A stretch of DNA of 39,522 nt, taken from Myxococcales bacterium (GTDB taxonomy: Bacteria > Myxococcota_A > Polyangia > Polyangiales > Polyangiaceae). This document shows positions 18,158 to 39,341 of the stretch, in pieces (the stretch's first letter is position 1; each line of letters opens with the position of its first letter). The stretch covers positions 1 to 39,522 of the forward strand of contig JAAFHV010000060.1 in assembly GCA_013297655.1 (NCBI GenBank), in the 5' to 3' direction. The position numbers and the translations under genes were made by a program. Below the pieces are notes generated by a model, which saw nothing but the letters and a program-made list of their open reading frames with translations, made no database searches and had not been told where the DNA came from.

Positions 18158-19537
18158 TCACTTGCCCGGACGCATGCAGCGAAAGCCGACCTCGGCCGCG
18201 ACGGCGCGCTTTTCGTTCACGATTCGACCGCGCCTCGCGCGCTTCATGAGCCCGGCGGGACCGGAAAAATAGCCTCCCCGCATCGATCGCGCGCCTGGGA
18301 GGCTAGGGCTCTCGGCGTCGCAAAAGGGATCGCGAAAAATGCCGCTGCCCCAGCAGGGCTCGTCTTGTTGGTTCCAGCGGTCGCGCGCCCACTCCGAGAG
18401 GTTCCCTCCGAGATCGACGAGCTCGCCGCCGCGCGCGGCGATCCGGTCGCGCTTCGTGGTGCCGCCGACCCCGGGCCGCACCTCTTCTCCGCGCCGACAA
18501 TCGGGTTGGCTGTTCGCGCTCCGCGAGAACGACGCGTCCTCGCAGGTGGGCGGATCGTCGCCCCACGGGAACGTGCTCCCGCGGTTGCCTCCCGCCGCGA
18601 GCTCGAGCTCCGTCTCGGTCGGCAAATCACGACCGAGCTTGCGGCAGGCGGCGCGCGCCTCCGTCCACGAGATGCAGTTCACGGGGAGGTTTTGCTCACC
18701 GCTCCCGTCGCGCGCATAGGTGCATCCTACAATCTTGCCCGTGACTCGGTCCGAAGGATCGTCGAGGTACGTGATCCCGATCGCGCGAAGCTCGCCGACG
18801 GTGAGCTCGTGCTTGTCCAAAAAGAAGGGAGCCACGATCGCGAGGCGCTCGGCCTCGCCGTCGAAATCGGTCTTCGCGCCGCGATCGAGGGTCGGATCGC
18901 CCATCCAGAACCCGGCCCCCTCTACACACGCCTCGTTCGGCCCTGGCTCGCCGACGCACGGGCGTGGCTCGTGCTCGTGGAAGCTCCCTGCGAAGCCCGC
19001 GCGGGGGCGGCCGAGGGTCGCGACGATCGGCGCGGCGAGGTCCCCCTGCGGCGCCGCGAGCTTGGCGACCGGCAAGGTCACGACCACGTCGACGAGGCCC
19101 TCGTTCGGGATCTCGGGGAGGGCGATCGTGGCTTCGATCGTGGACGCCGGTCGCGCCGCTAGCCCCTTCGACCGGAAGAGCCGCACCCGGAGCCGGAGCG
19201 CGCCCCGTAGCGAGGTCGCCCCCATCGGGAGCACGCCGATCGAGAGGGTTCCGTTCTTGGCGCCCTCGCGGGTTGGCTGAAGCTCCCGCGCGCAGCCGCG
19301 GCATGGCTCCGTTTCGCCAGGTAGGAACAGCTCGAACGACAGGCGATCGAACAGCGGAGGAACGAGCGCCACGGTGCCCGGCTCCTCCGGTAGCGGCGCG
19401 TCGGTGTCGACGTACACCACGAGCTGCCCGCGGGGCGGCAGCTCACGATCGCCACACGACGCGACTCCGAGCGCGAGCGACGCGAGCAGCCCGAGCCCTA
19501 TCGAAGCTCTCAACGCTGAGCGAAGCGCCGCCATCAT
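18158..19537 (-). CDS. lipoprotein with formylglycine-enzyme-like (SUMF1) domain, copy B
   Basis: 459 residues. The start is the ATG at 19535-19537, which overlaps the upstream stop by ATGA. Lipobox VASC gives Cys28. The N-terminal domain (about 30-180) begins GDRELPPRGQLVVYVDTDAP, nearly the same as its upstream neighbour. A SUMF1/FGE-sulfatase fold covers about 203-459: FWMGD, DKHELTVGEL, LPVNCISWTEARAACRKLGRDLPTETELELAAGG, PWGDDPP, LVDLGGNLSEWARDRW, RSMRGGYFSG and GFRCMRP. The redox-active cysteine pair that true formylglycine-generating enzymes carry near the C-terminus (CxxxxC in the CNPSYC region) is absent here, so it is probably a binding rather than catalytic domain. Last gene of the kinase-PEGA-lipoprotein operon. 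Confidence 0.87.
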   Translation of the reverse strand: MMAALRSALRASIGLGLLASLALGVASCGDRELPPRGQLVVYVDTDAPLPEEPGTVALVPPLFDRLSFELFLPGETEPCRGCARELQPTREGAKNGTLSIGVLPMGATSLRGALRLRVRLFRSKGLAARPASTIEATIALPEIPNEGLVDVVVTLPVAKLAAPQGDLAAPIVATLGRPRAGFAGSFHEHEPRPCVGEPGPNEACVEGAGFWMGDPTLDRGAKTDFDGEAERLAIVAPFFLDKHELTVGELRAIGITYLDDPSDRVTGKIVGCTYARDGSGEQNLPVNCISWTEARAACRKLGRDLPTETELELAAGGNRGSTFPWGDDPPTCEDASFSRSANSQPDCRRGEEVRPGVGGTTKRDRIAARGGELVDLGGNLSEWARDRWNQQDEPCWGSGIFRDPFCDAESPSLPGARSMRGGYFSGPAGLMKRARRGRIVNEKRAVAAEVGFRCMRPGK

Positions 19538-21075
19538 GGTGCAGGATACACGCATCTGATCCCGAGCCCGGAGAAGATGGCGTCGACGTCGGTGACTTGG
19601 CGGGTCGTGCTGCGAAGGTAGAGCACCGGCGCGATCCAGGAGGCGCCGCGGCTGACCTTCTTCGCGACGACACCGGCGGTCGGGGCGACGACGACCCGTG
19701 GATCGATGCGCGTGACGGTGGTCCACGCCTCCGAGCCGTAGGGGGCGTAGTCGTCCGCGGTCCATTCGCCGAGGCCCCCCGCGAGGCCCACGACGCCGAG
19801 CGGCGACGTGTCGGATTCCTGAAGAGGTGCGCCATCTTCCGCGAACACGGGGACGGGGCCCTTTTCACGACCACGCGCGCACACGCCGGGCGATCCGGCG
19901 AGGGCGACCCGTCCGTAGACGACCTCGTCGCAGCTCGGCTCGGTGTCACCGGCGGGGTACCTCGTCTTGCGCGGCCCGCCGGCCGACGCGGCCTTCTCCC
20001 ACTCCGCCTCGGTGGGGAGGCGACCACCCTCGAACGCGCAGAAGCCGGACGCGAGGGCGAAGCCGACGCAGCTCACGGCATACCCTTCGCGCTTTTGCGC
20101 CGAGCGCGACCACGGACAGGCCTCTTCGACCGTGGTCGCCATCGGGCCCTCGGTGCCCTCCGGCTCGCCGCGAAATCCGCGCGCCCGCGCGTCGCGCATG
20201 CGGGCGACGGTGACCTCGTGGCGATCGACCACGAAGCGAGATACCGCCACGATCCGCTCCGGCGACGGGGGCTCCTCCGGCGAAAAATCGACGAGCCGAG
20301 AGCCGAGCACGAACGCGCCGCCGGGCACGCACACGCGGTCCTTCGTCGTGAGCTCGTTCGTGCACGGAGCGGCGTGAAATGTCCCTGCCCGTGACGTCGT
20401 CGGGGTCTCGAGGACCGCGTCCACCGCGCCGCCGTCGGCAGGGCCGCGGACGCCATTTTTACACGTGGTCGCGGAGACCACATCGGGGGTCGTCGGCTCG
20501 TCGCCGAGGCGCGCCATCTCGCCCGCGCACGCCCCCGCGAGCACGACGGTGTGGCGTGCGCGTTCGGCGTGCACGAGGTGGAGCGCGACGAGGCGATCGA
20601 CCGCGAGGTTGGGCAGCGGCTCGAGCGGGGGGGTCAGATCGCGTCCGTCGCGCACGAGCCGCGGCCCTGCGGTCGGCGTCGCGCTCGCCGCTCCCGGGCG
20701 GTGCACGGTGGCGAAATCTTGGAAGCGCTCGCCGCGGTAGGAGCGGGTGGCTCCTTCCGGGAACACACGGAGGCGGACCATCACGTCGTGATCGCGTCCG
20801 TCGTCTTTGCCGACCACGCTGAAGCTCACCGGCCAGTCGCGCGCGTCGGGTCGCGCGAGCTCGCGGCTCTCGATCCAGACGCCGCTCTCGTAGACGTCGA
20901 CCCGCAATCGACCTGCGATCTGCGGTACCGGGAGGTCGGTGTCGACCACGACGAGGGCTTCCCCGAGGGGTGGAAGCTCGCGCCCGCAGCCCGCCACCGC
21001 GAGGCCGGCGAACAGGGGAACGAGCGCCGCGCGCGGCGAAACAGGACGCGACGATCTCGTTCCGCGAGGGCTCAT
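19534..21075 (-). CDS. lipoprotein with formylglycine-enzyme-like (SUMF1) domain, copy A
   Basis: 513 residues. The start ATG 21073-21075 overlaps the stop of the PEGA gene. Lipobox VAGC gives Cys30, followed by GRELPPLGEALVVVDTDLPVP, which parallels copy B downstream. A middle beta-rich region (50-240) comes before a SUMF1-type fold at about 249-513: CVPGGAFVLGS, VDRHEVTVARMRDA, YAVSCVGFALASGFCAFEGGRLPTEAEWEKAA, RYPAGDTEP, GVVGLAGGLGEWTADDY, SRGASWIAP and GIRCVYP. As in copy B, no C-terminal cysteine pair is visible, so formylglycine formation is unlikely. The two proteins are tandem paralogues. Both are expected to be anchored to the envelope and may act as substrates, receptors or outputs for the operon's kinase. 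Confidence 0.87.
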   Translation of the reverse strand: MSPRGTRSSRPVSPRAALVPLFAGLAVAGCGRELPPLGEALVVVDTDLPVPQIAGRLRVDVYESGVWIESRELARPDARDWPVSFSVVGKDDGRDHDVMVRLRVFPEGATRSYRGERFQDFATVHRPGAASATPTAGPRLVRDGRDLTPPLEPLPNLAVDRLVALHLVHAERARHTVVLAGACAGEMARLGDEPTTPDVVSATTCKNGVRGPADGGAVDAVLETPTTSRAGTFHAAPCTNELTTKDRVCVPGGAFVLGSRLVDFSPEEPPSPERIVAVSRFVVDRHEVTVARMRDARARGFRGEPEGTEGPMATTVEEACPWSRSAQKREGYAVSCVGFALASGFCAFEGGRLPTEAEWEKAASAGGPRKTRYPAGDTEPSCDEVVYGRVALAGSPGVCARGREKGPVPVFAEDGAPLQESDTSPLGVVGLAGGLGEWTADDYAPYGSEAWTTVTRIDPRVVVAPTAGVVAKKVSRGASWIAPVLYLRSTTRQVTDVDAIFSGLGIRCVYPAP

Positions 21076-27307: not shown

Positions 27308-29668
27308 GTGGCCCCGATGGTAAGCCCCGAAGCCCTTCCGCCCGGCCTTGAAAACGATCCCGAGGGGGCTCGTATCGTCTCGGAAGAATTGCGCCTTTTG
27401 GCGACCGTGAAGGCCACCCTCGCCGACGCGGCGAAGAACGCCGAGAAGGCCGTCGTCACCGAGGACGACTCGCTCCTGCTCGATCTCCGTGAGCAAATCG
27501 CGGCCGCGAAGCCCGAGGACCTGCCCGCCCTCCTCGAGCAGATGCACAACCTCGGCGCCCTCCGTGCGCAACGAGGAAAGAGCGCGACCGGCTTCCTCGA
27601 CAAACAAAGCCCCTACTTCGGGCACCTCCGCCTCGAAGAGTCGTACGAAGGCGAAAAGAAGCCGCGGCGCCGCGACGTGCTCGTCGGCGCGCGCTCGTAT
27701 TTGGACCCTCGCGCAGGCCTCCGGATCGTCGATTGGCGCAACGCCCCGGTGAGCCGCATCTTCTACCGCTACGGCGAGCAGGAAGATTACGAGGAGACGC
27801 TCGGCGACAGGCTCGTCGAGGGCAAGGTTCTCGCGCGTCGCAGCGTGGCCATCACCGATGGCGAGCTCAAGCGCGTCGCGTCGCCGCAGGGCACGTTTCT
27901 GCTCGGCAAAGAAGGCACATGGAAGCGGCTCGATCCGCGGTCGTCGCGTCTCGTCACCGAGAAGCGCTGGGAAGGCGGAAAGAGCCGCCTCGGCGTGGGT
28001 CACGACGGCGAGCTCCGGAAAGACAAAGAGCTCCCCGAGATCGCGGCCCTCCTCGACAAGGATCAGTTCAACCTCATCACCGCGCCGAGCGCGGGGCTCG
28101 TCGCGATCCAGGGCGGCGCCGGCAGCGGCAAGACCACCGTCGGTCTCCACCGCGTCGCGTTCCTCGCGGAGACCGATCCGGCGCGCTTCCGTCCCGAGCG
28201 CATGCTCGTCATCGTGCCGAACGAAGCGCTCATCCACTACACCGCGCGCGTCTTGCCATCGCTCGGCGTGGTCGGCGTCCCGATCGCCACGTTCCCGAAG
28301 TGGTCGTCGCGGGTGGTGCTCGATCTCTACCCGAAGCTCCCCACCCGCATCGCGGAGGACACCCTCCCGGTCGTGTCGCGCGCGAAGACGAGCGGCTGCA
28401 TGCTCCGCGCGCTCGACGAGCTCCTCAAGCGCCTCGAAGAGCGGATGACCCGCATGGTCGAGGACACGATGGCCAAGTGGCCCGAGGGCAAGACCGTGGT
28501 CCGCGCCTTCGCCGCATGCAAAGGCGCGCCCGATGTGCGCGTGAGCCAGCTCGCAGCCTGGCTCGCGAACAAACGTCCGATATCCAAGGAGATTCCGGCG
28601 GCGAGCACCCTCCCAGACGTGACCCGCGGCGCCGTCGAGAAGCTCGGCCACGACCTCCGCAAAGAGAGCCGCACGGTGCTCGCGACCTGGGACGAGCTCA
28701 CGACGAACCGCGAGCTCCTCGCCCGCGCGTTCGCGAACGAGCCCGGCTTCGGTCCTGGCCAGCTCGACCAGGTGCACGCGTATGGCGTGCGCAAAGCGCG
28801 CGTGCGCCAAGAGGGCGAGCGCGACGGCGAGATGCCCACGATCGATCTCGAGGATCACGCGCTGCTGCTTCGCATCCACCAGGTGCTCCGCGGCCCGCTC
28901 GCCGACGGCGAGGGTCGCCCGCTCAAGGTGGCGCACCTCTTCGTCGACGAGGTCCAAGACGCGAGCGCGGTCGAGCTCGCGGTGCTCATCGATCTCGCGG
29001 GCGGCCCCGAGGGCTCGATCACGCTCTCCGGCGACACCGCGCAGCGCATGCTCGACGACGGCGACGAGCGCGGCGAGGTCGACTTCACGAAGATGCTCAC
29101 CGACCTCGGCGTGGAGAGCCGTTCGCTCTCGCCGCTGCGGGTAAGCTACCGTTCTACCGCAGAAATCACGACGTTCGCGCGTCACGTGCTCGGGCCGCAC
29201 GCGCACGAGGCGGAGCCGATCGCGACCCGCAGCGGGCCGCCGGTGGAGCTCTTCACGTTTGCGTCGCCGGGCGAAGCGGTGCTCTTTTTGGCCGAGGCGC
29301 TCAAGGACCTCTCCCGCGACGAGCCCACCGCCAACGTGGCTGTCGTCGCGCGGTTCCCGCAGCAAGCGCAGGTCTTCTACGAAGGCCTCGTCCGCGCCGA
29401 GGTGCCGAACGTGCGCCGTGTCGCGAAACAAGACTTCCAATGGGAAGCGGGCTTCGAGGTCACCGACGTACGGCAAACGAAGGGCCTCGAGTTCGACGAG
29501 GTCATCCTCCTCGAGACCACCGCCGCGAGCTACCCGGAGAGCTCGCAAGCGAGGCACGCGCTCTACGTCGGCGCCACCCGCGCCGCGCACCAGCTCTGGT
29601 GCATCTCGAGCGAAAAGCCCTCTCCGCTCGTGGAGAAGGCCCTCGCCGCGATGGAAGAGGCCCCGTGA
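27308..29668 (+). CDS. HelD-like superfamily 1 helicase/RNA polymerase-recycling ATPase
   Basis: 786 residues, start GTG 27308 or ATG 27317. The N-terminal 120 residues are helical and charged, as in the arm that HelD inserts into the RNA polymerase secondary channel. RRRDVLVGARSYLD...IVDWRNAPVSRIFY follows, a family feature. Walker A is GGAGSGKTT (269-277), preceded by a Q-like DKDQFNLI. Walker B is LFVDEVQDAS, with LSPLRVSYRST (motif IV), VTDVRQTKGLEFDEVIL (motif V) and ALYVGATRAAHQL (motif VI). HelD uses ATP to free stalled RNA polymerase from nucleic acid; the UvrD-like core also allows a DNA helicase role. It is 83 bases after the frameshifted phosphodiesterase on the same strand. Confidence 0.88.
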   Translation: MAPMVSPEALPPGLENDPEGARIVSEELRLLATVKATLADAAKNAEKAVVTEDDSLLLDLREQIAAAKPEDLPALLEQMHNLGALRAQRGKSATGFLDKQSPYFGHLRLEESYEGEKKPRRRDVLVGARSYLDPRAGLRIVDWRNAPVSRIFYRYGEQEDYEETLGDRLVEGKVLARRSVAITDGELKRVASPQGTFLLGKEGTWKRLDPRSSRLVTEKRWEGGKSRLGVGHDGELRKDKELPEIAALLDKDQFNLITAPSAGLVAIQGGAGSGKTTVGLHRVAFLAETDPARFRPERMLVIVPNEALIHYTARVLPSLGVVGVPIATFPKWSSRVVLDLYPKLPTRIAEDTLPVVSRAKTSGCMLRALDELLKRLEERMTRMVEDTMAKWPEGKTVVRAFAACKGAPDVRVSQLAAWLANKRPISKEIPAASTLPDVTRGAVEKLGHDLRKESRTVLATWDELTTNRELLARAFANEPGFGPGQLDQVHAYGVRKARVRQEGERDGEMPTIDLEDHALLLRIHQVLRGPLADGEGRPLKVAHLFVDEVQDASAVELAVLIDLAGGPEGSITLSGDTAQRMLDDGDERGEVDFTKMLTDLGVESRSLSPLRVSYRSTAEITTFARHVLGPHAHEAEPIATRSGPPVELFTFASPGEAVLFLAEALKDLSRDEPTANVAVVARFPQQAQVFYEGLVRAEVPNVRRVAKQDFQWEAGFEVTDVRQTKGLEFDEVILLETTAASYPESSQARHALYVGATRAAHQLWCISSEKPSPLVEKALAAMEEAP

Positions 29669-29979: not shown

Positions 29980-30504
29980 TCACTGGTCGTGGAGATCGAC
30001 CGTAATCCGGCTCTTTCCTGCGTCCATCGTGCTCGCCTGCGGCGGCCCGTTGGCGAGCGGAGGGATGCCCCCGTCGTCGGCTGCCTGCGGCCCGGATGGC
30101 GGCGTTGCCCATGACAGCCGCGCGCCAAGCTGACCTGCGGAAGCACATTGCACGGGCATGGTCAGGTTCACGTTCGTCGCGCCCGCGGCGGGTCGTACAC
30201 GCACGCGGAGCAGATCGCCGACGACCTCCTCGGCGACGACCTTCCCGTCCCACGACTGCGCGGCTTGTCCGACACGCGGCTTGCTCGACGCGCTCTTCGA
30301 GAAGTCGACCTCGAGCAGCACGTCGGTCCCGAGGAACGTCGCGCGGGCCGTCACTTGCCCGAAGGTGCCGGGGCACTGCGCCGGCGGCGGCATGGGATCG
30401 ACCACGCCGTAGCCCGGCTCGTGTCGCTTCGAGCACCCAGCGGCGAGCGCCGCGACGGCGAGGAGCTTCTGCATGTGGGCGCGAGTCTTGTCGCGGGGGC
30501 TCAT
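29980..30504 (-). CDS. lipoprotein with conserved VVDPMPPPAQC motif, copy 2
   Basis: 174 residues. The N-terminus MSPRDKTRAHMQKLLAVAAL leads to a good lipobox LAAGC (Cys24), followed by SKRHEPGYG. The motif VVDPMPPPAQC comes directly after and is identical to that of the upstream neighbour. A beta-rich domain follows (VTARATFLGTDVLLEVDF, VVGDLLRVRVRPAAG, ATNVNLTMPVQC), with a second conserved Cys that could pair with the motif Cys. The Pro/Gly-rich tail ends SRITVDLHDQ. It begins 4 bases after the stop of copy 1. The family is unknown; with copy 1 and the radical SAM gene it forms a three-gene operon. An internal ATG at 30474 is an alternative start. Confidence 0.72.
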   Translation of the reverse strand: MSPRDKTRAHMQKLLAVAALAAGCSKRHEPGYGVVDPMPPPAQCPGTFGQVTARATFLGTDVLLEVDFSKSASSKPRVGQAAQSWDGKVVAEEVVGDLLRVRVRPAAGATNVNLTMPVQCASAGQLGARLSWATPPSGPQAADDGGIPPLANGPPQASTMDAGKSRITVDLHDQ

Positions 30505-30508
30505 GGCT

Positions 30509-31180
30509 TCAGTAGTTGTCGACGGTGGTGGAGATCTTGCGGCCCTTCGCTTTGTCGATCGTGAGCTTCACCGCGAGGGTGGCCCAGCCCGGGCACGAGG
30601 CCGGCACGGAGAGCACGACCATCGTCGCGTTCGGATCGACCGTGACTTGCGCGTGCACCTTGCCGTCGCGAAAATCGGACGTCGCGAGCTTGCCGCCGAC
30701 CACGCTGAGCGGGTGTTCCTTCGGGTTTCGCAGCTTCACTTGCGGCGACGCGCTCCCCACGACGATGTCGACGAGCTCGCCTTCTTTGACCCACTTCGTC
30801 GCCGCGTTCACCGTCCCCAAGTTGCACTGCGCCGGCGGCGGCATCGGATCGACCACCGCGTAGGTGGGCGGAGGGAGCGGCTGCGGTGGCTTCACGGACG
30901 GCGTCGCGGTCGTGACAGGATCGGGCGGCGTCGTCGTCGCTTGCGTCGCGGTCGGCGGCGCGGTCGTCGCGGTGTTCGGAGGCGGAGGCAAATCGGGCGG
31001 GGGCGAGATCGGCTCTGGTTTGCTGCACCCATCGGCGCCCGCGCCGAGCATGGCGGTCGCGGCGACGAGGCGGCGCATGTGGAGCATCGTTCGCTCGCGG
31101 GGGCTCGTCGAACGGGTCGAGGGGGTAGGGGCGGGGAGCACCTCGGGGAGGAGCTTCAGCTTGCGTTTCCGATCGCTCAT
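30509..31180 (-). CDS. Pro-rich lipoprotein with conserved VVDPMPPPAQC motif, copy 1
   Basis: 223 residues. The start ATG overlaps the radical SAM stop (ATGA) and has AAGGAG seven bases before it. Residues 1-31 are a charged, Pro-rich leader, unusual ahead of a signal. TSPRERTMLHMRRL (25-38) matches the first residues of copy 2. A short hydrophobic stretch then ends in GADGC (Cys52), a poor lipobox because of the Asp. A long Pro/Thr linker leads to YAVVDPMPPPAQC (107-119) and a beta-rich domain with a second Cys (SVPASC), closing with KISTTVDNY. The unusual N-terminal leader could be cytoplasmic and seen by the radical SAM enzyme, but this is speculation. Confidence 0.75.
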   Translation of the reverse strand: MSDRKRKLKLLPEVLPAPTPSTRSTSPRERTMLHMRRLVAATAMLGAGADGCSKPEPISPPPDLPPPPNTATTAPPTATQATTTPPDPVTTATPSVKPPQPLPPPTYAVVDPMPPPAQCNLGTVNAATKWVKEGELVDIVVGSASPQVKLRNPKEHPLSVVGGKLATSDFRDGKVHAQVTVDPNATMVVLSVPASCPGWATLAVKLTIDKAKGRKISTTVDNY

Positions 31181-32838
31181 TCTGCGGCTCCTTCGATGTG
31201 AGAGAGCGCATGCGGCGCGAGATCCTTCGCGCGTTGCAGCGGTGTCATCACCCGGTCGACGCCGAGGTCGGTCAGCGGCGTGCCCCCGACGGACGTCATG
31301 ATGTCGCGCGCGAGGGCTCGTGCCTCTTCGCCGATGGCGACCTCGACCGCCCGCATCCGCGCCGCGATCTCGGGAACGAGCGCGCGCTCTTCCTCGAAGC
31401 TGCCGTTGCGCTTCACGAGGTCCACGATCTCGGACAGGCCATCGGCGCCCGAGAGCGTGAGCCTTCGCGAGAGCTCTTTTCCGTGCGCGAGCCACTCCGC
31501 GCGAAACTCCCGCGGGTGGAAATGGCGCACCACCTCGACGTCGAAGCGGGTGCCCATGATCCGGTTCGCGAGCGCGCCGTCGCCGAAGTTGCGCTCGTGG
31601 AACGCCTCCATCGACAGCGTAAAGATGCGCTCCACGTCGGCCGAACCGAGCGAATAATCCCACTGCATGTAGTCGCCACGGCACCGCTTCTCGGCCTGCA
31701 TTCGCGCGAGCAAAGGCGTGCCGGCATACAGCTCCACACGGCCGAAATTCGATGGAAATTCGGGCGCATAGCGCAAAAACGCGATGTTCGTCTCCAGGCT
31801 CTCGACGGTCGTGTCCGGGTCGAAGACGAGCATATTGAAGCAGGTATAGAGGTCGAGCTCGCGCATGAGATCGATCGCGGTGTGGTTCTGTCGCGACTTC
31901 GACCAGCGGCGAAGCGTGCGGAGCCCTTGGTCGGCGTCGGTCTCGATCCCGATGTAGACGCGGATGCAGTGGAGGCGCTCCTTCAGGATCGTGAACACCT
32001 CGCGGTCGACGTCGGTGGGCCGCGCTTTCACGACGGTGGCGTAGCGGCCGATGCCGCGTGCCTCGAGCGCGTCCGCGAGCGCGGAGAAGCGCTCCTTGTT
32101 GTGGCGGTGCCCAGGCACGAAAAAGTTGTCGTCGTGGAATACGAAGATGTCGACGTTGCGGTCGCGCTTCATGGCGACCATCTCGTCGGCCACGTCGTCG
32201 ACCTCGCGGAGGCGGTACCGTTTGCCGGGCAAGCTCTGCTCGTGCCACGCGGCGATGCAGCAGAACGAGCAGTTCGCATAACAACCGCGGCTCGAGACGA
32301 GCGGCGCGATCCCGTGTCCGAAGCACGTCGCGGGCTCGCCACGGCGGTCCGGACGCGGCAAGGTCGCGAGGTTCGGGAGCTCGGGGTGCGGCGTGAGCAA
32401 GATCTGGTCGCCACGACGGAGCGCGAGGCCCGGGATCTCGTCGAGCGGCGCGCCGGAGACCACGCCCGCGACGAGCGCGCGCATGGTGTCCTCGGCTTCC
32501 TGGCGGCACACCGAGTCGACCTCCGGAAAGTCGGCCAAGATCGCCGGCGCCTCGAACGTCGCGAAGTGACCGCCGAGGGTGATGTGGCCGGTGAAGCCGC
32601 GCTCGCGGAGCGCCATCGCGACGGACAGAAAGTCCCGCGCGCGCCATTGAAACGCGAGCGAGATACCGACCACGGCCGGGGCCGCGGCGAGCACCTGGTC
32701 GACGACCTCGGCGAAGTCGGCCTCGGAGTTGAACGCGACGAGGTCGGTCGTGTGACCGTCCGCCGCGAGCGACGAGGCGATGTACCGGAGGCTCAGGTTC
32801 TCTTCGAATTCGGGACCGACGAGCGCGACGTGCGGCAT
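31177..32838 (-). CDS. B12-binding-type radical SAM protein
   Basis: 553 residues. The N-terminal about 150 residues form a Rossmann-like cobalamin-binding domain (VALVGPEFEENLSLRYIASS, VVGISLAFQWRARDF, GHITLGGHFATF). The DxHxxG His ligand motif is not present. The radical SAM cluster motif CYANCSFC is at 186-193, after PLVSSRG, followed by the barrel (DIFVFHDDNFFVPG, RVYIGIETDADQGLRTL, NMLVFDPDTTVESL). A helical C-terminal domain of about 180 residues completes it. Such enzymes methylate or rearrange unactivated carbons, with very varied substrates. It is first in an operon whose next gene overlaps by 4 bases and encodes a lipoprotein. An AT-rich promoter lies about 120-150 bases upstream. 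Confidence 0.9.
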   Translation of the reverse strand: MPHVALVGPEFEENLSLRYIASSLAADGHTTDLVAFNSEADFAEVVDQVLAAAPAVVGISLAFQWRARDFLSVAMALRERGFTGHITLGGHFATFEAPAILADFPEVDSVCRQEAEDTMRALVAGVVSGAPLDEIPGLALRRGDQILLTPHPELPNLATLPRPDRRGEPATCFGHGIAPLVSSRGCYANCSFCCIAAWHEQSLPGKRYRLREVDDVADEMVAMKRDRNVDIFVFHDDNFFVPGHRHNKERFSALADALEARGIGRYATVVKARPTDVDREVFTILKERLHCIRVYIGIETDADQGLRTLRRWSKSRQNHTAIDLMRELDLYTCFNMLVFDPDTTVESLETNIAFLRYAPEFPSNFGRVELYAGTPLLARMQAEKRCRGDYMQWDYSLGSADVERIFTLSMEAFHERNFGDGALANRIMGTRFDVEVVRHFHPREFRAEWLAHGKELSRRLTLSGADGLSEIVDLVKRNGSFEEERALVPEIAARMRAVEVAIGEEARALARDIMTSVGGTPLTDLGVDRVMTPLQRAKDLAPHALSHIEGAAE

Positions 32839-36272: not shown

Positions 36273-39200
36273 TTACTCGGCCTTGGCGTCGTCGGAAAGT
36301 CCCGCGTCGCCGAGGCTCGCGTCGGTCCCGGGCACCGTGGGCGGGTCGTCGGTCTCGGAGACGCCGCCATCCCACGCCTCCTTCGGCGGCAGCGGGAGCT
36401 CCTCCGCGAGAGGCACCACGAGCACCGCGCGCACCCCCGCCGGATGGGTGACGACGAGCTCCTTCATGCCGGGCTTCGTGTCACCCGTGCCCTCGGCGAC
36501 CGCGAGCGACGCTTCGGCGGTGGTGCGCGCGACGAGCGAGATGCCCGCGACGGACACGGTCGCAACGCCGGGCCCGGCGCCCTCGACGAGGACACGAAAC
36601 GATCCCGCCGGCACGAGGACCGAGCCGGTCAGCGAGTTGACCGTGCCGCCGTCGGCGCCCGCGACGAGGCCTCCCTTTTTTGGAACAAGGAGGCCCGCCG
36701 CCCGCGCGACCGGCACCGCGTTCTCGAGCGGTTCAGGTACCCCCGCGAACCTGATAAGTGATCGAAACATTTCGTCTTTTGCACCGCACGCGACGAGGGC
36801 GCTGGCCAGCTTCACGCGGGTCGGCCGGTAGCGCTCGACCACGAACGCGCGAAGGAGCGGCTCACGCGCGGAGGGATCCGCGATCGCCGCGAGGGCGTCC
36901 GCGACGTAGGGACGAAGGCGAAGATCGCCGAGCTTGCCCACGAGGGTCGGGACCGCGCTCTTGGCCTTGTGCTGCGCGAGCAGCGCCACGATCTCCCGCG
37001 CGCGGTCGAGCTCGAGGGCGGCGGGAGGGCGTGTCTCGTCGAGCCATCCGGCGAGGAGCGCGACGCCCCGCGGATCGCCCGCGTCGGCGAACGCGAGCGC
37101 GGCGCGGCGTCTCCACGCGAGATCCGGATCGGCGAAGAGCTTCTCCGCGACGGCCTTGGCGCCCGGCGCGGCGTCGCTCGCGCGCACCAACGTCAGCGCG
37201 AGGAACCGGCGCGTCGTGTCGTCTTCCTCGCGGGCGAGGGCGCGTCGCGCCGCGTTCGCGGTGACCTCGCCGCGGTCGAGCCAGAACGCGACCTCCGCCG
37301 CCTCGCGACGCACGACCAGACTGGCGTCGTCGAAGAGCGCCGCGACGTCCTCCGCGGCGTCGGCTTCCCCTTGTTTTCCACGGCGGAGCGCGTCCGGGAG
37401 CTTTTGACCACCTTCGTATCGGCCGTGGTCGCGCTCGGTCTCGGCGAGCTTCTTCCGCAGCGCTTTGGTCCTCTCGCTCGTGGGGCCGACGTCGCGCGTC
37501 TGGAGGGGATCGTGCGCCAGATCGTAGAGCGCGCAGGCCGCGATTTTTCGAGCGCACACGAGCCGCTCTCCGCCCTCGGCGACGAGGGTGAAGTCGTCCG
37601 TCTCCGCGAACGCGAAGCCCGCTTTTTGCGCCGGGGTGGTCTCGCCCTCTTTGAGAACGGGGCCGAGATCGCGCCCGCGCACCCGGGCCGGTCGCGGGAT
37701 GCCGAGGGCCGACAGCGCGGTCGGCAAGATGTCGATCGTCTCGACCGGGGCGTCGAGGGTCTGCGTTTTGACGCCCTTGCCCACCACCACGAGGGGGACC
37801 CGCACCTGCTCCTCGTAGACCGTCGTGCCGTGGTAACGACCGCCGTGCTCGCCGAACTCTTCGCCGTGGTCCGCCGTGACGACGAACGTCGCGCGCGGTC
37901 GGCTCCCCTCCACGAGGCGCACGATCTCACCCACCGTCTGGTCGGCCTCGGCGACCTCGCTGTCGTACGCGTCGACGTCGGTCCCGCGCGCGCGATCGCC
38001 GAACACGTGGGCGTCGTGGACGACGTACGGCTCGTGCGGCTCGAAGAGGTGCACCCACAGGAACAGCGGTTTGTCCTTTGGTGCAGTTTGCATGTATTTC
38101 GTGATTTGCGCGATCCGAAGCGCCCGATCGGTGAACTCGACCTTGCGGTACTCGAAGTCGAGACCTGAGTCTCGGAAGCGAACGAAGCGACTCTCGTCGA
38201 TGAAGAACACGGCCGGCGGATAAAACGCGGCGGTGCGGTAACCGTAGCGGCGGAGATGGCTCGCCATCGTCTCCGAGCCCTCGCCGACCCCGAGCGAAAG
38301 GAGCGGCTTCATGTACTTCCCGGTGAGCATCGAGGTCACCGAGTACGAGGTGTGTGGCGTCGGGCAATACGCGTGCGCGAAGCGGGTTCCGCGCGCGGCG
38401 AGAGCGTCGATCTCGGGGGTCGTCTTGCGAGCGTAGCCGTACGACGAGACATGATCGGCGCGGAGCGCGTCGACCGTGACGAGCACGAGATCGTTACCGG
38501 TCCAATCGAGCGCGCGCGGCACCTCGGAGGCCGCGACCGCGGTGGTCGCTTGCGTCGGCTCGTCGGTGTCTTCCGGGGGAGCTACCCACGCCGCGATTCG
38601 CACCGCGCGACCGAGCAGCGGCGCGCGATCGAGGAGCACGATCCGCAGGTTGTCCGATCGCGCGGCCCCTCGCGCTTCCGTCTTCACGAACGCGCCGAGC
38701 CCCGCCGCGGCGAGCAACGTCGCCGCCCCGACCTTGTCGAAGACACGAGGTAGAGAAGGCGCGGTGAGCGCGACGCTGGCGAGGAAGAGCACGAAACACG
38801 CGAGGTGAAACCCGGGGTAAAGTCTCGGAAGTACGAATGAATCTGCGATCCAAAACGCGGCTGCGAGGCCGAGGCCGATCGTGGCGCGGGTGCCCACCGA
38901 GCGCGCGAGCAGCCTCGGGAGCAGCACGTGCGCCACGCCGGCCGCCAGCGCACCCGTGACGACGACGAACGGGACACGAACGACGAGGCTCTGCAGGTGA
39001 CGGCCGGTCGAGACCGAGAGCGCGACCGCCGCGCCGAAGAGGAACGCGACGACGACGTGCGGCCCGATCGTTCGTGAAGCGCGACCCGCGAGCGCGTAGC
39101 GCGTGGCCTCGACGTAGAGCCCGACCGCCACCGCCGCCGGAGCGAGGACCGTGAGCAAGAGCGGGCTCAAGAACCGACGCGCGAGGGCCATTTCCCAGTA

Positions 39201-39341
39201 GCCCGCGAAGAGCGCGCGGTAGCCGAGGCCGACGACCACGTTCTCGAACGCGATCGCGAGCGCCCACACGAAGACGACCCGCCCGGCGACGAACGCCGCG
39301 CGACGCGCAGAGAACCCGCGCCTCGACGCCGTGCCGCTCAT
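36273..39341 (-). CDS. membrane sulfatase-fold protein with C-terminal HEAT-like repeats
   Basis: 1022 residues. The N-terminus has six or seven transmembrane helices (about 15-220). A sulfatase/alkaline-phosphatase-superfamily domain follows at 283-600: LVLVTVDALRADHVSSYGY (metal Asp291), HLFEPHEPY (431-439), TADHGEEFGEHGG (489-501, metal Asp491-His492) and HGTTVYEEQVRVPLV. The usual formylglycine Cys position, eight residues before LTG, is Thr331 (TSYSVTSMLTG), so a Thr nucleophile as in phosphoglycerol or phosphoethanolamine transferases is likely. HEAT-like helical repeats span about 655-860 and an Ig-like beta domain closes the protein. It would act on a glycolipid or cell-wall polymer outside the inner membrane. 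ATGA overlap with the partial upstream gene. Confidence 0.88.
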   Translation of the reverse strand: MSGTASRRGFSARRAAFVAGRVVFVWALAIAFENVVVGLGYRALFAGYWEMALARRFLSPLLLTVLAPAAVAVGLYVEATRYALAGRASRTIGPHVVVAFLFGAAVALSVSTGRHLQSLVVRVPFVVVTGALAAGVAHVLLPRLLARSVGTRATIGLGLAAAFWIADSFVLPRLYPGFHLACFVLFLASVALTAPSLPRVFDKVGAATLLAAAGLGAFVKTEARGAARSDNLRIVLLDRAPLLGRAVRIAAWVAPPEDTDEPTQATTAVAASEVPRALDWTGNDLVLVTVDALRADHVSSYGYARKTTPEIDALAARGTRFAHAYCPTPHTSYSVTSMLTGKYMKPLLSLGVGEGSETMASHLRRYGYRTAAFYPPAVFFIDESRFVRFRDSGLDFEYRKVEFTDRALRIAQITKYMQTAPKDKPLFLWVHLFEPHEPYVVHDAHVFGDRARGTDVDAYDSEVAEADQTVGEIVRLVEGSRPRATFVVTADHGEEFGEHGGRYHGTTVYEEQVRVPLVVVGKGVKTQTLDAPVETIDILPTALSALGIPRPARVRGRDLGPVLKEGETTPAQKAGFAFAETDDFTLVAEGGERLVCARKIAACALYDLAHDPLQTRDVGPTSERTKALRKKLAETERDHGRYEGGQKLPDALRRGKQGEADAAEDVAALFDDASLVVRREAAEVAFWLDRGEVTANAARRALAREEDDTTRRFLALTLVRASDAAPGAKAVAEKLFADPDLAWRRRAALAFADAGDPRGVALLAGWLDETRPPAALELDRAREIVALLAQHKAKSAVPTLVGKLGDLRLRPYVADALAAIADPSAREPLLRAFVVERYRPTRVKLASALVACGAKDEMFRSLIRFAGVPEPLENAVPVARAAGLLVPKKGGLVAGADGGTVNSLTGSVLVPAGSFRVLVEGAGPGVATVSVAGISLVARTTAEASLAVAEGTGDTKPGMKELVVTHPAGVRAVLVVPLAEELPLPPKEAWDGGVSETDDPPTVPGTDASLGDAGLSDDAKAE

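Follow-up and report, generated by a model that had tools for sequence, protein, structure and literature searches.

The window, a stretch of 39,522 nucleotides from a Myxococcales bacterium (contig JAAFHV010000060.1), carries the gene of a predicted cobalamin-binding radical SAM enzyme and, directly behind it, the genes of two exported motif proteins, copy 1 and copy 2 (Table 1). The start of copy 1 overlaps the stop of the enzyme gene as ATGA, and copy 2 starts 4 bases past the stop of copy 1. The AAGGAG site of copy 1 lies 7 bases 5' of its ATG. Both copies contain VVDPMPPPAQC in exactly the same form, a second Cys at an aligned place (VPASC and MPVQC) and an N-terminal SPR[ED][RK]T..HM segment. 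This arrangement had been described in the first-pass annotation and is borne out by the sequence, the translations and the alignment. The charged leader of copy 1, which the annotation had considered odd for a lipoprotein, is real and is kept in relatives; since it is conserved, the start of copy 1 is taken to be genuine.

Table 1. Features of the enzyme and motif protein locus in the window
Feature	Position	Strand	Basis
Cobalamin-binding (predicted) radical SAM enzyme, 553 aa	31177..32838	-	Pfam matches; alignment with relatives
Copy 1, exported motif protein (predicted lipoprotein), 223 aa	30509..31180	-	Translation; start kept in relatives
Copy 2, exported motif protein (predicted lipoprotein), 174 aa	29980..30504	-	Translation; AlphaFold2 model
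Radical SAM cluster motif C186-x3-C190-x2-C193	32260..32283	-	Cys invariant in 16 aligned relatives
VVDPMPPPAQC of copy 1, proposed modification site	30824..30856	-	Pattern search and alignment
VVDPMPPPAQC of copy 2, proposed modification site	30373..30405	-	Pattern search and alignment
Copy 1 leader LKLLPEVLPAP ... SPRERTMLHM, proposed docking element	31076..31180	-	Both blocks kept in relatives
Copy 2 leader block SPRDKTRAHM, proposed docking element	30472..30501	-	Sequence comparison
AAGGAG ribosome-binding site of copy 1, within the 3' end of the radical SAM gene	31188..31193	-	Sequence

Other genes of the window include a UvrD-like helicase convergent to the pair (27308-29668, plus strand), which resembles the RNA polymerase recycling protein HelD at a score under the HelD cut-off, a protein that combines a sulfatase domain with HEAT repeats and whose N-terminus is membrane-like (36273-39341, minus strand), and a protein with a formylglycine-generating-enzyme-like domain (18158-19765, minus strand).

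The enzyme displays a B12-binding domain (PF02310, 9.2e-17) followed by a Radical_SAM domain (PF04055, 1.5e-11), both exceeding the Pfam gathering score, and the cysteines of its CxxxCxxC cluster motif are invariant among the aligned relatives. Its best profile match by sequence is OxsB (2.3e-23). The AlphaFold2 model of a relative with a C-terminal tail, L073, is confident over residues 1-519 and disordered beyond residue 540, and among solved folds it is closest to OxsB (Z 26.6, rmsd 4.5, 474 aligned), followed by MgmA (Z 25.3), AprD4 (24.7), CysS (24.6) and TsrM (24.0). By domains and modelled fold, the enzyme belongs to the class 1 cobalamin-binding radical SAM proteins and is OxsB-like, with cobalamin binding and SAM cleavage as predicted properties. 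It has no signal and is presumably cytoplasmic. The position under the cobalt, occupied by Asn186 in OxsB (PMC13331322), aligns with Ala in the window enzyme and with Thr in relatives whose tails carry DPxPxP, and this residue does not settle the reaction. None of the NCBIfam models scanned reaches its cut-off: the enzyme scores 98.4 bits with BchE (TIGR02026; cut-off 481.35), 74.6 with ApyD (NF050148; 750), 53.7 with MgmA (TIGR04014; 360), 46.0 with the RiPP maturation radical SAM C-methyltransferase model TIGR03975 (281.85) and 27.4 with the CUAEP/CCAEP-tail model (NF040546; 500).

Relatives of the enzyme were collected from 145 genomes belonging to the order, from 290 belonging to the class and from the GTDB contig collection. 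Stand-alone enzymes, 48-70% identical, together with the divergent L083 at 41%, were inspected one by one. All 21 stand-alone loci with enough flanking DNA encode an adjacent exported motif protein, usually starting at the enzyme stop or within a few bases of it; L054, where the contig ends 184 bases past the enzyme, was left outside this count. Enzymes of about 30% identity have neither a motif neighbour nor a motif tail (0 of 49 loci). The paired loci come from metagenome-assembled genomes of Myxococcota, Planctomycetota (L059) and Acidobacteriota (L062). The arrangement of the partners varies. One genome (G101, locus L039) has a motif protein on each side of the enzyme gene, L055 has an upstream partner bearing two motifs, and in G103 a single enzyme gene is followed by four consecutive motif proteins (L043, G103:C467, 1888-4330), two of them ending directly after the motif without a C-terminal domain. 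The 22 related loci contain 215 coding-like ORFs; [VC]D[PM]xPxP is encoded by 13 of these, each a neighbour of the enzyme gene, with two located upstream, the more distant at about 1.1 kb. No gene family other than the enzyme, the partners and generic protein kinases was found in three or more of the 22 loci. The unit is thus the enzyme with its motif protein. Up to four enzymes of the family, stand-alone and tailed forms mixed, occur in one genome (L044/L061, L052, L053/L083 (G138); also G157 and G173).

The 27 partners contain 30 motifs of the form [VC]-D-[PM]-x-P-x-P. The D and the second P are present in all 30; the residue following D is P in 28 and M in 2, and is itself followed by a hydrophobic residue, V or C precedes D in 28, and the second P is usually succeeded by P-P. 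The invariant columns of the partner alignment (A4) are M1, an Arg of the leader, and V, D, P and P of the motif. Within the partner, nothing is as constant as the motif together with the leader, and the remainder of the protein diverges. The DNA encoding the two motif copies of the window is identical at 32 of 33 nucleotides in genes that are otherwise divergent, which might reflect gene conversion or a shared codon bias; the wider comparison of motifs is independent of this identity.

The 9.9 Mb home genome has two sites with DNA encoding V-D-P-[NTN]-P-P-P, and both lie in these lipoprotein genes. Because the coding pattern is confined to these two places, and all ORF matches are neighbours of the enzyme, an origin of the motif by chance or low complexity is excluded. 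Across the 145 genomes the number of VDPxPPP matches is close to that of a reversed-pattern control, and the other matches are in the wrong frame or belong to unrelated signal-less proteins wherever the loci were read (about 15 were left unread). A single genuine partner outside the counted loci was encountered among the loci read in the 145 genomes, in G016 at a contig end. Motif proteins far from the enzyme, which the first-pass annotation had proposed to look for, were sought in the same genomes and none was found among the loci read. Matches to P-D-P-L-P-P-P in 14 genomes fall by coordinates inside enzyme tails in 13 of 19 cases. Matches to CEMAP beyond the tail of L141 are out of frame and were discarded.

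Ahead of their signal-like segment, 26 of the 27 separate partners display a loosely defined block R-x-R-x(3)-H-[LM]-x-x-L; this pattern was drawn up by eye from these very partners, which makes the proportion descriptive, and the informative part is the contrast with the tailed enzymes, where R-x-R-x(3)-H-[LM] is found in 1 of 19, against a background of 4 in 95 windows. The sole partner devoid of the block belongs to L083, whose enzyme falls outside the main stand-alone clade. A second block, LxLMPEVLPxP, is seen in the partners of the clade nearest to the window, with a tendency to be lost from second copies. The block R-x-R-x(3)-H-[LM] is distributed as a docking signal would be if it were required in trans alone, and the partners combine a leader with a core motif (27 of 27) beside the enzyme in the manner of RiPP substrates.

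The rest of the partner is variable. Behind the motif, copy 2 is predicted by AlphaFold2 to have a beta-sandwich-like domain, L134 has a PEGA domain, and the partners of L044 and L060 and two of the L043 copies have no domain at all. Apart from the one swapped PEGA domain of L134, no Pfam or NCBIfam family matches were obtained for the partners. A Foldseek search with the lipoprotein fold gave nothing significant (best E 0.15), and the best VIA-align score of the fold, Z 7.3 with the DsbD N-terminal domain, is typical of generic beta sandwiches. By eye, the lipobox LAVAALAAGC of copy 2 fits, GAGADGC of copy 1 is weak, and the lipobox Cys is absent from the partners of L134 and L062 and from the first L043 copy. 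Since some partners have no lipobox Cys, the trait common to them appears to be export rather than lipidation. Tat export was considered and rejected: RR is present in some leaders, yet it is not conserved.

In 19 relatives, 38-44% identical, the enzyme itself extends into a hydrophobic segment, which often ends in Cys, and then into a proline-rich tail with the motif. The tail motif reads PPPDPLPPP in one clade and [TSC]EM[AV]PxP in another, the latter type being clearest in the repeated (H)MCEMAPPPY-like units of L141; the tail of L078 has a looser form, EMVAxPP. Altogether 66 motif instances were counted in 18 of the 19 tailed enzymes, with 1 to 7 in each. The two versions are bridged by the partner motifs VVDMLPPP and VVDMLPSP (second L040 copy and third L043 copy), and we therefore read them as a single motif, [DE][PM]xPxP. 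By eye, the EMxP tails of L070, L071, L074, L140 and L141 have stretches that resemble periplasmic domains of TonB C-terminal or AgmX type between the repeats. The long tail of a 1016-residue relative (L084, 6001-9051) contains CDPMAIPP and CDDILPLP, which may be degenerate or distant forms of the motif. In the enzyme tree the stand-alone enzymes form one clade (19 rows, 100/100), with L083 outside it, the DPxPxP-tailed enzymes another (95/84), and the EMxP-tailed enzymes a third group. The stand-alone and the two tailed kinds are thus separate groups within one superclade, and its outgroup, the 49 loci mentioned above, is without the motif.

These observations bear on the suggestion of the first-pass annotation that the enzyme modifies an exported lipoprotein, for instance within its PMPPP stretch. 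On genomic grounds, action of the enzyme on the proline-rich stretch is strongly supported by the conserved pairing, the constancy of the motif, its repeats in cis and a leader block confined almost entirely to trans partners. The narrower wording is to be amended, as the conserved set is wider, [VC][DE][PM]xPxP, and lipidation is not universal; the chemistry is putative. We consider it probable that the enzyme is a RiPP-like maturase, modifying the DPxPxP motif of exported proteins before their secretion, either in trans or in cis, and the genomic comparison likewise makes the motif its likely substrate. The cytoplasmic, cobalamin-dependent enzyme would bind the newly made partner via the N-terminal leader, docking on R-x-R-x(3)-H-[LM] and in some partners also on LxLMPEVLPxP, and would then modify at least one residue of [VC]-[DE]-[PM]-x-P-x-P. 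General export and lipoprotein processing would follow, and the modified partner, usually a lipoprotein, would display the motif on the cell envelope. Since the substrate would finally reside in another compartment than the enzyme, modification would have to precede export, which is a weak point of the model. In the tailed enzymes the C-terminal tail would be modified by the molecule that bears it or by another one, with no need of the leader block. As to the reaction, analogy with cobalamin radical SAM methylases, MgmA among them, leads to a guess of C-methylation, for which the invariant acidic residue and the second Pro of DPxP would be the prime sites. Against the maturase model, proline-rich stretches can also be linkers or docking sites, no motif is recognisable in the relatives L077, L082 and L145, and the tail of L073 is modelled as disordered, not docked.

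As in the other option of the first-pass annotation, a lipid or cofactor product, the enzyme might instead make or alter a lipid or small molecule, with the lipoprotein or tail anchoring, carrying or delivering the product and the motif serving as its binding site. HpnR, HpnJ and BchE make or alter lipids or small molecules, and these enzymes of lipids and porphyrins are among the sub-threshold NCBIfam matches; the partners and tails are membrane-linked, and OxsB, the closest fold, has a small-molecule substrate. Yet no lipid-biosynthesis gene recurs beside the pair in the 22 loci, the motif would lie across the membrane from the enzyme, and neither repeated tail motifs nor a leader restricted to trans would be expected of a carrier, so that we regard this explanation as unlikely. 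A small probability is also all we assign to the motif being a non-covalent docking or structural element, which would tether the enzyme to an envelope partner or the membrane and itself undergo no modification. Proline-rich segments are commonly linkers and ligands, and the hydrophobic segment ahead of the tails could anchor the enzyme. However, a motif expected outside the cytoplasm would be unable to hold a cytoplasmic enzyme, and a linker would not need residues as tightly fixed as the D/E and the P at position 4, between which the choice of hydrophobic residue is free.

It is highly improbable that unrelated genes share this operon by coincidence, the two lipoproteins having the motif in common because of a recent duplication. 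The near identity of the motif DNA in the window makes gene conversion possible, but pairing at every countable stand-alone locus over several phyla and the fusion of the motif in cis refute coincidence as the explanation.

Modification of the motif by a RiPP-like maturase remains the preferred reading, and several known systems invite comparison with it. Class 1 cobalamin radical SAM enzymes, reviewed in PMC13331322, include OxsB, TsrM, TokK and CysS, which share the N-terminal B12-binding Rossmann domain, the radical SAM core and the C-terminal helical part; their substrates are small molecules, whereas a peptide motif in a neighbouring protein or a tail is proposed here. MgmA, the methyl-coenzyme M reductase glutamine C-methyltransferase, is a B12 radical SAM enzyme that methylates a protein (PMC11796369). 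It is alike in fold (Z 25.3) and in having a protein substrate, as proposed for the present enzyme, and differs in that this is one archaeal cytoplasmic protein, without leader, tail repeats or export. The enzymes of TIGR03975 and ApyD are B12 radical SAM enzymes encoded beside a short substrate with a leader and a conserved core; their substrates are released peptides, as opposed to exported proteins or the enzyme's own tail. Because the modification is putative and the TIGR03975 and ApyD cut-offs are missed, the present system resembles a RiPP-type maturase with its substrate and is not classed as a member of a RiPP family.

A radical SAM gene adjoins a lipoprotein gene also in the Bacteroidetes pair TIGR04133/TIGR04134, the enzyme of which is not known to have a B12 domain. 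The neighbourhood is alike and the models are unmatched here, both being absent from the NCBIfam matches of the enzyme and the lipoproteins up to E 0.1. The CUAEP/CCAEP-tail radical SAM (seleno)protein (NF040546) is likewise of B12 type with a short conserved tail motif, the tail itself being different, and is not known to have an exported partner. The literature search returned no paper on such pairs of enzyme and motif protein, and the literature searched held no precedent of a sulfatase maturase acting before export.

On balance, the evidence leans slightly toward a widespread and unrecognised system of post-translational modification on the [VC][DE][PM]xPxP motif of exported proteins, guided by a leader in trans or acting on repeats of the enzyme tail, and decorating the envelope in Myxococcota, Planctomycetota, Verrucomicrobiota and relatives. 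The comparison yields a simple and testable substrate rule, [VC][DE][PM]xPxP. If the motif is modified, a radical SAM enzyme would be altering bacterial surface proteins in a way so far unrecognised, with a substrate that alternates between an enzyme-fused form and a separate, leader-guided protein. The tailed forms would then constitute a natural series of self-substrates for B12 radical chemistry on proline-rich peptides, and the system would offer a handle on the envelope biology of Myxococcota and Planctomycetota.
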